From: Pseudomonadota bacterium
GTDB taxonomy: Bacteria; Pseudomonadota; Alphaproteobacteria; Micropepsales; Micropepsaceae
Direction of reading: 5' to 3'
Assembly: GCA_021808875.1 (NCBI GenBank)
Contig: JAKBAU010000102.1
Location: forward strand, 1-10,724
Length of the DNA: 10,724 bases
Every line of letters begins with the position of its first letter. Positions within the stretch are counted from its first letter, which is position 1. Shown one piece after another: positions 1,501 to 9,653 of the stretch. Made by a program: the position numbers and the translations under genes. The notes beneath the pieces were generated by a model. The model had not been told where the DNA came from. It did no database searches and was given only the letters and a program-made list of their open reading frames with translations.

Positions 1501-2348
1501 ATATCAAATACTCCACCATGCGCCGCCAGCACCGGCCGGAAGTCCTTCCTGCGGAGAATCCGTTTAACGGTGGAAAGCACGAGGTCTCCGGTGGCCCCAG
1601 CCGCGAGCGTGCAGACGACGATGGCAGCTGCCGATGATGGAGTGAGTCCAATCAGATAACGGGCTGCGGCATAGCCGGTTATCCCTCCCACCACGAGGCC
1701 GCCAACTAGCCCCTCCACAGTCTTGCGCGGGCTCAGGCGGGGCAGAACGGGACGCCGCCCAACCAGCTTTCCCACCAGCAGAGCGAATGCGTCGTTCATT
1801 TCCACTGTGCTGTAAACAAGAATGACCCAACCGAGGCCATTGTGTCCAAATCTGAGCATAGCTGTCAGCGCGACCAACACGCCGGGAAAGAAGAGACTCA
1901 CAACGGCCACCACAGTGGCCAATGATACGTGACCACGTTCAATTGCCGCACTCATGATCAATAAAGCCGCAACGCTCACCAGCAGGGCGGGAAAAAGAAT
2001 AGTAGACGCGAAGAGCGCCAGAACAACCAGCCCTCCCCCGAAGATGGTTGCGCTCCAGCGGATCGCTACCTTTCTGTTCAAACCGAAGGCGTCGAATAGC
2101 TCGAATACACAGCGGTATTCTATCGCCAGAAGCAGAAGCAGAAACGCCCACTTTCCTAACGCCGCGGGCACCAAGATGGCGCCGACAATGATGAATTCCT
2201 GCACATACAAACGCCAGAGCTCCGGCGCGACTCGTCGCCAAGCAGGATAAATCGAGGCGACGAAGAGCAAACCAGCTCCAAGGGCGAAAGACATCGCGAC
2301 AACGACCAATGCGGTGGTATCAAATTGGCTTAGGACTTCACTATTCAT
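1437..2348 (-). CDS. CdsA-family phosphatidate cytidylyltransferase
   Basis: Integral inner-membrane protein of 303 residues with about eight hydrophobic segments. The family reaction transfers CMP from CTP to phosphatidate, giving CDP-diacylglycerol, the precursor for phosphatidylinositol-type head-group transfer. The C-terminal signature occupies 259-286: S259, K262-R263, K268-D269, H277-G278-G279, D282 and D285 are kept. The usual Arg of the D-R-x-D end is Ile283, and two smaller positions also deviate (Arg271 and Ala275). A second conserved block (VEMNDAFALLVGKLVGRR...SPRKTVEGLVGG) fits the E. coli CdsA region GKLFG...SPGKTWQGFIGG. Its ATG overlaps the TGA of the upstream reductase (ATGA at 2345-2348), so the two are probably translated together. 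The 3' end runs 64 bp into ino1. The variant signature and its position beside a KDSR-like gene suggest an accessory paralogue rather than the housekeeping enzyme; a ceramide-phosphate substrate is possible but speculative. Confidence 0.9.
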   Translation of the reverse strand: MNSEVLSQFDTTALVVVAMSFALGAGLLFVASIYPAWRRVAPELWRLYVQEFIIVGAILVPAALGKWAFLLLLLAIEYRCVFELFDAFGLNRKVAIRWSATIFGGGLVVLALFASTILFPALLVSVAALLIMSAAIERGHVSLATVVAVVSLFFPGVLVALTAMLRFGHNGLGWVILVYSTVEMNDAFALLVGKLVGRRPVLPRLSPRKTVEGLVGGLVVGGITGYAAARYLIGLTPSSAAAIVVCTLAAGATGDLVLSTVKRILRRKDFRPVLAAHGGVFDIYDSFLFAAPFVFLLRTAAGF

Positions 2349-3199
2349 TTTTTGTTATGGGCGCGGGCTATAATCGGGTCAAACGAATACCAGTTCAAAA
2401 ACGGACCAATCAAGCTGTGAAAATGTGATAAAATGGTCATTTCCCAGCCTGGTGCAATCGTGAAGCGCGCACGTCGAACTCCCCGTATTATGGCGTCGGC
2501 AACCTCATCAGCAGAATATACCCGCGTAGAGCCCGCGATCTTACTCGTGATCTCGGGTCGCGTTTTCAACTCTTCGCGCAGTTGCGGTGTATCCGTATCC
2601 GGAGGATAAACGATTGATACACCGATGCCCTCTGGCTTCAATTCCGCCCGCAACGCTTCCGCAAACCCGCGCAAGGCGAACTTAGACGGTGCATAGGTCG
2701 TGTAGCCATAAAGGCCGATCAACCCCGCACCTGAGGACAACATCACGAAACGCCCGGTGCCACATCGCCGCATGGATGGCAACGCCGCACGCACGACGTT
2801 GACCGTTCCTAGAAAGTTTACCTCCATCGTCTTGCTATAGGCCGAAGATGGGAGGTCGGAAAAAATTCCGGGAACCACAATGCCGGCGCTTGTCACGACC
2901 AATGCAGGTGGACCGAATTTCGCGATGGCGGAATCAACGGCGGCGGTCACCGCGTCCTCGTTGGTTACATCGGCCATTTCCGTGTGTATGCCGAGAGATC
3001 TTCCTGCCGCAGCCTGGATCTCATCGCAGGCCAACTTCAACTTCTCTCCGTCACGGGCCAAGATCGAAATATTGTGCCCGGTCTTTCCCAGCTTCTTAGC
3101 AAGGGCAAGACCTATCCCGCTTGAACCACCGCTCAAAAGGACATGGGAAGGCAAAAGATCCACCACGACAATTTGCTCATTTCGTACACCAGATGCCAT
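2345..3199 (-). CDS. short-chain dehydrogenase/reductase, 3-ketodihydrosphingosine reductase-like
   Basis: NAD(P)-dependent SDR of 284 residues from the ATG at 3199. The cofactor loop is SGGSSGIG (23-30), Ser155/Ser156 supply the catalytic serine, and Tyr169-x3-Lys173 is the active-site pair. Resemblance to KDSR goes beyond the general SDR fold. VLLSGGSSGIG near the N-terminus, ARDGEKL at 48-54, LIGLYGYTTYAPSKFALRGFAEAL in the middle, YPPDTDTP at 198-205 and a hydrophobic tail ending in YSFDPIIAR all parallel human KDSR (YPPDTDTPGF, GSFDSIVRR). KDSR reduces 3-ketosphinganine to sphinganine, step two of sphingolipid synthesis. The frame continues upstream to an ATG at 3304, but those 35 residues look unlike the family and neither start has a clear ribosome site, so 3199 is preferred by homology. 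First gene of a two-gene operon with the cytidylyltransferase. An SDR acting on another 3-keto lipid is the main alternative. Confidence 0.88.
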   Translation of the reverse strand: MASGVRNEQIVVVDLLPSHVLLSGGSSGIGLALAKKLGKTGHNISILARDGEKLKLACDEIQAAAGRSLGIHTEMADVTNEDAVTAAVDSAIAKFGPPALVVTSAGIVVPGIFSDLPSSAYSKTMEVNFLGTVNVVRAALPSMRRCGTGRFVMLSSGAGLIGLYGYTTYAPSKFALRGFAEALRAELKPEGIGVSIVYPPDTDTPQLREELKTRPEITSKIAGSTRVYSADEVADAIIRGVRRARFTIAPGWEMTILSHFHSLIGPFLNWYSFDPIIARAHNKK

Positions 3200-8779: not shown

Positions 8780-9653
8780 TGGTGACGTTGACCTCCATAC
8801 CAACGAGACGGTTCGCCGGATCAGCATGATCGAGCTTGATGCGCACATTACCTATCTCGGTGTGTGGGTCTATCATGCGGCCAATTTCCACGATGCGGCC
8901 TTGAAGGGGAGCCGCTAACGCGCGAGACTGGATTGTCGCCCGCATGCCGGGACGTAGGTGCAGAATATCGCCTTCGTAGACCTGGCAAAGTACAGCCATT
9001 GCATCGAGATTGCCCATCTCCACCGCAGCGCCACTTCCTAGCTGTGTTCCCACCGCCTGATTGATCCGCAAAATTGACCCATCAATCGGCGCGCGTAAAT
9101 CGGCACCCTGTATTGCCAAATCGTAAAGTCGCTGCGCAGATGCCAGCGCACTTTGCACCTGCGTCCTGGTAACTCGCAATTTGTCCCGCTCAACATCCAG
9201 AGAAAGGCGCGCTTGGGTCGCCGCGGCCTCAAGGTGATCGAGTTTCCTTTTCGAAACAAGAGAACTTCCCATCGCCCGGTAGATACGTACCGACGCGTTT
9301 GCCTGCGCGGCGACAGACTTCGCGAGACGGACAGCTGTAGTTTGTGCCGCCACTTTCTCAATGGCGAGCCTTTTTGCGGCAATGAGCTGGTTCCTTGCCG
9401 TTGCAACATCGCTTTCAGGTGTCACCCCTTGCGTGCTCATCAGTAGCGTCCCAGCCTTGACGACTTCACCAACATGAACATAGACGGCGACTACGCGCGA
9501 ACCAGGCGAGCCGATGACATCCACGACGCCACTCTCGGGGACAATTTGTCCGATGGCCCCGATAGCTAAACCACGCGCGTCATGAGCGGTGGCGGGACCA
9601 GCAATGCATGCCGTGGCAACGAGGACCCGCGCCACCTGCGCACTATGGCTCAA
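8769..9653 (-). CDS. devB: DevB/HlyD-family periplasmic membrane fusion protein
   Basis: Adaptor joining the permease to the outer-membrane channel. A biotinyl-lipoyl half (RVVAVYVHVGEVVKAGTLL) is followed by an alanine-rich coiled-coil hairpin of about 120 residues (ATARNQL... to ...SAQRLYDLAI). The other lipoyl half (LRAPIDGSILRINQAVGTQL) and a beta-barrel domain (MAVLCQVYEGDILHLRPGMRATI) come next, and the C-terminus LVGMEVNVTIDR matches DevB. The frame reaches back to ATGs at 9743 and 9800, neither with a good ribosome site. TTG at 9653 has GGGGAG 7 nt upstream, and the resulting N-terminus MSHSAQVARVLVATACIAGPATA is a compact signal sequence with an A-T-A cleavage site, giving 294 residues. 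I therefore choose it, with moderate confidence; the longer forms cannot be excluded. First gene of the devB-devC-devA-tolC operon. Confidence 0.9.
   Translation of the reverse strand: MSHSAQVARVLVATACIAGPATAHDARGLAIGAIGQIVPESGVVDVIGSPGSRVVAVYVHVGEVVKAGTLLMSTQGVTPESDVATARNQLIAAKRLAIEKVAAQTTAVRLAKSVAAQANASVRIYRAMGSSLVSKRKLDHLEAAATQARLSLDVERDKLRVTRTQVQSALASAQRLYDLAIQGADLRAPIDGSILRINQAVGTQLGSGAAVEMGNLDAMAVLCQVYEGDILHLRPGMRATIQSRALAAPLQGRIVEIGRMIDPHTEIGNVRIKLDHADPANRLVGMEVNVTIDR

Follow-up and report, generated by a model that had tools for sequence, protein, structure and literature searches.

Introduction

Does one stretch of alphaproteobacterial DNA encode both the synthesis of an inositol-headed envelope lipid and the pump that would carry it to the outer membrane? 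The stretch, here called the window, comprises positions 1 to 10,724 of contig JAKBAU010000102.1 (10,724 nucleotides; assembly GCA_021808875.1, family Micropepsaceae). A preliminary description of it placed a KDSR-like reductase, a CdsA-type cytidylyltransferase and the inositol phosphate synthase Ino1 next to a devB-devC-devA-tolC operon, and proposed that the locus makes and exports an inositol-containing phospho- or sphingolipid. According to PMC11324152, it is not known by what route sphingolipids pass from the inner membrane to the outer; PMC11087976 states that neither a flippase nor a lipid transporter had been identified for them. We compared the genes of the window, their order, their conservation and the type of exporter beside them with 69 genomes of the window's genus and, for breadth surveys, with 385 genomes of its class; the chemistry and the transport are predictions drawn from these comparisons. 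We consider the chances about even that the window is part of a make-and-export locus for such a lipid.

Results

Linkage of lipid genes and exporter across the genus

The linkage of the inositol-lipid genes and the exporter is old. In the window, Ino1, a CdsA-like cytidylyltransferase and a KDSR-family short-chain reductase (SDR) are followed by a Wzi-family gene and by a TolC-type channel, a DevA-like ATPase, a DevC-like permease and a DevB-like adaptor, and this order is found again in relatives at protein identities of 42-94%. The co-occurrence search suggested at the outset recovered the linkage on one contig in congener G031 and across contig ends in G006 and G009. On contig C1 of G031 the core reads Ino1, CdsA, SDR, alpha-oxoamine synthase (AOS), TolC, DevA, DevC, DevB and a second DevC-like permease (DevC2), with the AOS, which is serine palmitoyltransferase (SPT)-like, directly before TolC. 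Ahead of Ino1 on this contig stand FabF, a Frag1-family gene, an ABC exporter, a CDP-alcohol transferase, an FGGY kinase that resembles xylulokinase, an unknown protein, a Stealth protein, a GT4 glycosyltransferase and a second CDP-alcohol transferase.

The other congeners are more fragmented. G009 has Ino1, CdsA, SDR and AOS on a short contig, near its end; TolC, DevA, DevC and DevB with DevC2 on a second, which ends inside TolC; and part of the ABC exporter, transferase, kinase, Stealth, GT4 and the start of Ino1 on a third. With these breaks at contig ends, G009 fits the order of G031. In G006, one contig carries GT4, Ino1, CdsA, SDR and the start of Wzi, and another Wzi, TolC, DevA, DevC and DevB; its order, with Wzi in place, is thus that of the window. 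Further G006 contigs carry FabF, Frag1, CDP-alcohol transferase and kinase, and its Ino1 contig is, letter for letter, the reverse complement of sequence from the metagenome-assembled genome "Alphaproteobacteria bacterium isolate REEB323." Another congener, G001, is 99.5% identical to window positions 6860-10724, where its contig starts; its assembly has no match to the window left of 6860 and no Ino1.

Outside the genus, G058, from another family, has the order AOS, DUF4833, Ino1, SDR, CdsA, LptF, LptF, GT4, FGGY and transferase. Ino1 occurs in 30 of the 385 class genomes, and the CdsA-SDR cassette was seen near it only in G031 and G058 (neighborhoods of at most about 10 kb on each side, often shortened by contig ends), which ruled out Ino1 alone as a marker of the cluster. 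Stretches L198, L205 and L210 near Ino1 gave weak SDR matches (26-32%) and no CdsA match.

Two further observations concern these contigs. Upstream of Ino1 in G006 (L114:735-1230) there are weak traces of the second CDP-alcohol transferase (E 0.33 to 1.2), which may be a remnant or may be chance. Between DevC2 and Wzi in G031 (L113:7252-11143), genes for phosphoenolpyruvate (PEP) mutase, phosphonopyruvate decarboxylase and PhnW score above curated cut-offs; aminoethylphosphonate decoration of the lipid or glycan is possible.

Partition of exporter types among AOS clusters

The exporter beside the AOS comes in two types within the genus. AOS was surveyed in 37 of the 69 genomes; 17 of the 37 had an AOS above 300 bits, and counting G019, where the gene is split over two contigs at 42-45% identity, brings the number to 18. 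The LptF-like gene typical of AOS neighborhoods (LptF2) occurs in 26 of the 69 genomes, 15 of them among the 37 surveyed. All 15 have AOS; in 14 of them the two genes share a contig and are no more than 10 kb apart, and in G026 they are on different contigs. The three AOS genomes that have no LptF2 (G004, G009 and G031) are three of the five genomes with DevC (P = 0.0065, kinship uncorrected); the remaining two, G001 and G006, have neither the cluster AOS nor LptF2. DevC and LptF2 occur together in 0 of the 69.

In a tree of AOS proteins, which leaves out G019 and G037, those of G031 and G009 nest with six of the LptF2 type (support 100/99); that of G004 belongs to the other clade and has a long branch, a placement flagged by the program as unsure. 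The tree and the partition suggest an exporter swap, in which DevBCA-TolC and an LptF-type system were exchanged while the AOS lineage stayed. We put forward only tentatively, and with more doubt than belief, the fuller form of this proposal: that an exporter of MacB type, dependent on TolC and with a heterodimeric permease, carries an inositol glyco(sphingo)lipid to the outer membrane and replaced the LptF type one or more times within the same lineage of AOS.

Companion genes for a predicted inositol lipid

A phosphatidylinositol (PI)-synthase-like CDP-alcohol transferase was found in 3 of the 69 congeners, all among the five with DevC (P 1.9e-4, kinship uncorrected), and in 2 of the 385 class genomes. 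It shares a genome with Ino1 in G006, G009, G031 and G058; from this pair the window shows only Ino1, and the G001 assembly shows neither. The first transferase of G031 is nearest to the PI synthase 6h53 (55 bits), and the second gave only weak matches. The G031 GT4 protein matches PimA chains at 164 (4n9w) and 163 bits, with the first non-PimA chain at 65. These matches support the conclusion that PI-synthase-like and PimA-like genes complete an inositol-lipid pathway in the relatives, and they suggest a PimA-like glycosyltransferase with inositol lipids in Alphaproteobacteria. No PAP2/AUR1-type domain was present in the ten G031 proteins scanned.

The actinobacterial pathway to PI and PI mannosides (PIM) consists of Ino1, PI-phosphate synthase and PimA. 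The nearest solved structures of the Ino1, transferase and glycosyltransferase discussed here are those enzymes, and the entries are actinobacterial; the present set differs in its Gram-negative host, its outer-membrane exporter and the AOS in relatives. The cluster also resembles Bacteroides BT_1522-1526, where Ino1/MIPS lies (PMC9246714 and PMC8791184) beside a CDP-alcohol inositol transferase, as it does in the relatives of the window; it differs in that CdsA-like, KDSR-type and PimA-like genes join Ino1. The main text of neither paper contains the word "transporter."

Matches of the transferase on plasmids led to a Spirosoma oryzicola plasmid (L230:11944-13233) on which a CDP-alcohol transferase forms one protein with DUF4833, next to genes for PgpA and PAP2. 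DUF4833-like genes also lie with many AOS clusters, a hint that DUF4833 may mark inositol-lipid loci. A second type of Ino1 locus, with a MobA-like NTP transferase and an AOS close to the true SPT of G030, was seen in L121, L201 and L203 of G030, G281 and G390; the G030 protein, encoded in this different Ino1 locus, is an SPT by curated cut-off (664 against 500).

The lipid enzymes of the window

Genes were assigned from open reading frames and from matches of their proteins to Pfam and NCBIfam profiles. Ino1 (361..1500, + strand; listed frame from 265) is of the mycobacterial type, with 119.6 bits to PF01658, 464 bits to the mycobacterial Ino1 structure 1gr0 and 512.7 bits to TIGR03450 (cut-off 638). 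The CdsA-like cytidylyltransferase (CTP_transf_1; 1437..2348, - strand; PF01148, 128.6 bits) is divergent, reaching 55.6 of 385 bits for PRK11624. Its C-terminus reads HGG..DIYD, as it does in G006, G031 and G009 and not in G058; canonical CdsA carries the signature DRxD where the window protein reads DIYD. The enzyme possibly acts on a lipid phosphate other than phosphatidate.

The reductase (2345..3199, - strand; frame 2345-3304, the longer frame giving 144.7 bits to PF00106) carries the SDR nucleotide and YxxxK motifs as SGGSSGIG and YAPSK. Residues 18-249 align with the solved KDSR TSC10 (8jat); its score of 92.9 bits ranks fourth among the solved chains, three other SDR chains scoring at least as high. 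Among the 120 best listed homologues 117 carry a PPDTDT motif, and the window's own protein is one of these; JGI names for these 120 are 3-dehydrosphinganine reductase and NCBI names SDR family oxidoreductase. A generic reductase, as NCBIfam alone would have it, was dropped as an assignment after the TSC10 alignment, the homologue names and the motif. "KDSR-like," the wording of the preliminary description, has more behind it than an SDR match alone, namely the TSC10 alignment and PPDTDT; the protein does miss the NCBIfam KdsR equivalog cut-off (98.1 of 400 bits). It looks like a member of the KDSR subfamily, with 3-ketosphinganine reduction as its predicted activity.

All eight genes are open and under purifying selection. 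Compared with G006, dN/dS is 0.053 for Ino1, 0.139 for CdsA, 0.109 for SDR, 0.182 for TolC, 0.135 for DevA, 0.108 for DevC, 0.213 for DevB and 0.076 for Wzi (327 codons only). The gene set is thus not chance, as its order recurs in relatives and these ratios lie at 0.05-0.21. The genes named in the preliminary description are real open reading frames with family matches. It had drawn the locus over 2345..9653; that span starts just to the right of Ino1 and CdsA, and the intervening Wzi gene had gone unmentioned. A search of a plasmid collection for near-identical DNA gave no match to the window.

The exporter and its neighbors

The four pump genes lie side by side on the - strand: the TolC-type outer-membrane channel (OEP; 5422..6894; PF02321, 69.2 bits), the DevA-like ABC ATPase (6891..7610), the DevC-like permease of MacB/FtsX type (7619..8848; PF12704 and PF02687) and the DevB-like periplasmic adaptor (HlyD; 8769..9800; PF16576, 45.6 bits). 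TolC and DevA share 4 bases, as do CdsA and SDR in the lipid block; 8 bases separate DevA from DevC, and the frames of DevC and DevB have 80 in common. The ATPase has Walker A, signature and Walker B motifs. The complete set of adaptor, permease, ATPase and TolC (window 5422-9800) is present also in G006, G009, G031 and G004. "DevBCA-like" is the right wording, because all three proteins fall below their NCBIfam cut-offs (DevA 249.1 of 295.8 bits for TIGR02982, DevC 177.9 of 290.35 for TIGR01185 and DevB 119.9 of 129 for TIGR02971).

DevC2 is present in all five congeners that carry DevC. At E 1e-30 it is found in 11 of the 385 class genomes, close only in G001 and G031 (51-100%), the other nine being at 25-31%. 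Past the right end of the window, G001 continues with about 1.4 kb of broken open reading frames, a DUF1647/GINT1_N protein (PF24793, 5e-29) and DevC2. GINT1_N occurs in 3 of the 69 congeners (G001, G006 and G009) and in none of 14 control genomes. It adjoins DevC2 all three times, lying between DevC2 and DevB in G001 and G009; the G006 contig ends within it. The name derives from the plant inositolphosphorylceramide glycosyltransferase, and a sequence search returned many homologues, some so named in Stappia. At window positions 9824-10440, between DevB and the GINT1_N gene, we also observed broken open reading frames with a motif suggestive of an IS3-type transposase.

The Wzi-family outer-membrane protein (3448..5052, + strand; PF14052, 188.8 bits) stands between the lipid block and the exporter block, in the slot that AOS occupies in G031. 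Its position raises a different account of the pump, in which it serves another substrate, such as a capsule-linked molecule, a drug or a peptide, and is merely adjacent to the lipid genes in a surface polysaccharide region. Two Wzi genes near the G031 cluster and the Stealth-type transferase within it fit that account, as do DevC relatives (24-31% identity) on plasmids of cyanobacteria and several alphaproteobacteria; to our knowledge the substrates of these plasmid-borne relatives are mostly unknown. Yet AOS lies directly before TolC in G031, the exporter types partition with the AOS clusters, and GINT1_N is found in the genus only beside DevC2, and we judge a pump for another substrate improbable.

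Sphingolipid or glycerolipid

The preliminary description called for an SPT in the host genome; the window and its relatives neither establish one nor exclude it. The cluster does include an SPT-like AOS in G031 and G009. The G031 protein scores 292 of 640, 266 of 500 and 208 of 670 against curated SPT models and 340 of 426 against bioF, and against structures it gives 212 bits for SPT and 207 for KBL. Being below all SPT cut-offs, it is not a proven SPT, and we assign it to an uncharacterised, SPT-like AOS subfamily.

Several findings, these scores included, weigh against the make-and-export reading. There is no AOS in the window, where a search for remnants found none at E up to 1 (best chance match E 1.0), and the AOS genes found in G001, rated 96% complete, are BioF and ALAS only, an absence that is weak because the left part of the window is missing from that assembly too. 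G006, which is rated 8% contaminated, has BioF and only an SPT-like fragment of 170 residues at a contig end (179 bits to the SPT model, 174 to bioF). G004 has AOS and exporter on one contig but about 27 kb apart, a distance that weakens the exporter swap there. That DevC and LptF2 never coincide in the 69 genomes does not reach significance by itself (P 0.15). Neither G031 nor G004 has GINT1_N, whose role as an inositolphosphorylceramide glycosyltransferase would be putative in bacteria. A close DevC2-type permease was seen only in one genus, and given this and the class counts for the transferase and Ino1, the DevBCA-TolC pairing is shown for one genus.

A glycerol-based product is the natural competitor. 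The window lineage may make ordinary PI or a PIM-like glycolipid, the sphingoid step having been lost with AOS and the reductase having another keto substrate. The missing AOS in the window and G001 favors this, as does Wzi in its slot in G006 also, and Ino1 together with the PI-synthase-like transferase and PimA-like glycosyltransferase of relatives amounts to a PIM-like set. Set against it are a reductase that is still constrained (dN/dS 0.11) and looks like the KDSR subfamily, a divergent CdsA-like protein and the SPT-like AOS fragment in G006. We regard this alternative as rather unlikely. For the window strain itself a plain inositol phospholipid is a possible product, and a sphingolipid product is unproven.

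Discussion

The proposal of a make-and-export locus keeps its conserved linkage, the SPT-like AOS of G031 and G009, the PI-synthase-like and PimA-like genes of relatives and the exporter partition; the SPT that a sphingolipid would call for is not in the window and was not found in G001, where its absence is weak. In the pathway we propose, Ino1 would make inositol phosphate and the CdsA-like enzyme would activate a lipid phosphate as a CDP-lipid. The PI-synthase-like transferase, found in G006, G009 and G031 and not in the window, would join the two, and PimA-like and other glycosyltransferases would extend the head group. Where AOS is present, a sphingoid base would come from this enzyme together with the KDSR-type reductase. 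In the window lineage the locus would have lost AOS, or the gene would have moved elsewhere, and the lipid made there may accordingly be either a sphingolipid or a glycerolipid. The tripartite pump, its permease perhaps a DevC-DevC2 heterodimer, would carry the finished lipid from the inner membrane via DevB and TolC to the outer membrane, standing in for the LptF-type exporter of other AOS clusters in the genus.

In cyanobacteria, DevBCA-TolC (HgdD) exports heterocyst glycolipids. The present pump shares with it an adaptor, a MacB-type permease, an ATPase and TolC side by side, and DevB, DevC and DevA are its nearest curated models; it differs in falling below those three cut-offs, in the DevC2 of all five DevC congeners and in having an inositol-lipid cluster next to it in the window, in G006 and in G031. 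The Caulobacter phosphosphingolipid locus, with LptC2, LptF2 and LptG2, likewise has ceramide-lipid synthesis genes adjoining a candidate export system (PMC11324152); there the export genes are Lpt-like and here DevBCA-TolC-like, the AOS of the relatives belongs to another subfamily, and Ino1 is present. Our literature search brought up no paper linking a pump of DevBCA or MacB type to the export of sphingolipids by bacteria, two papers that contain the words MacB, TolC and sphingolipid lying outside what was read.

A genus in which either LptF-type or DevBCA-TolC-type sets lie beside the same kind of lipid cluster offers two named candidates open to deletion and a natural comparison. If the proposed replacement is true, the DevBCA-TolC-like pump would give bacteria a second way of exporting sphingolipids, unrelated to the first.

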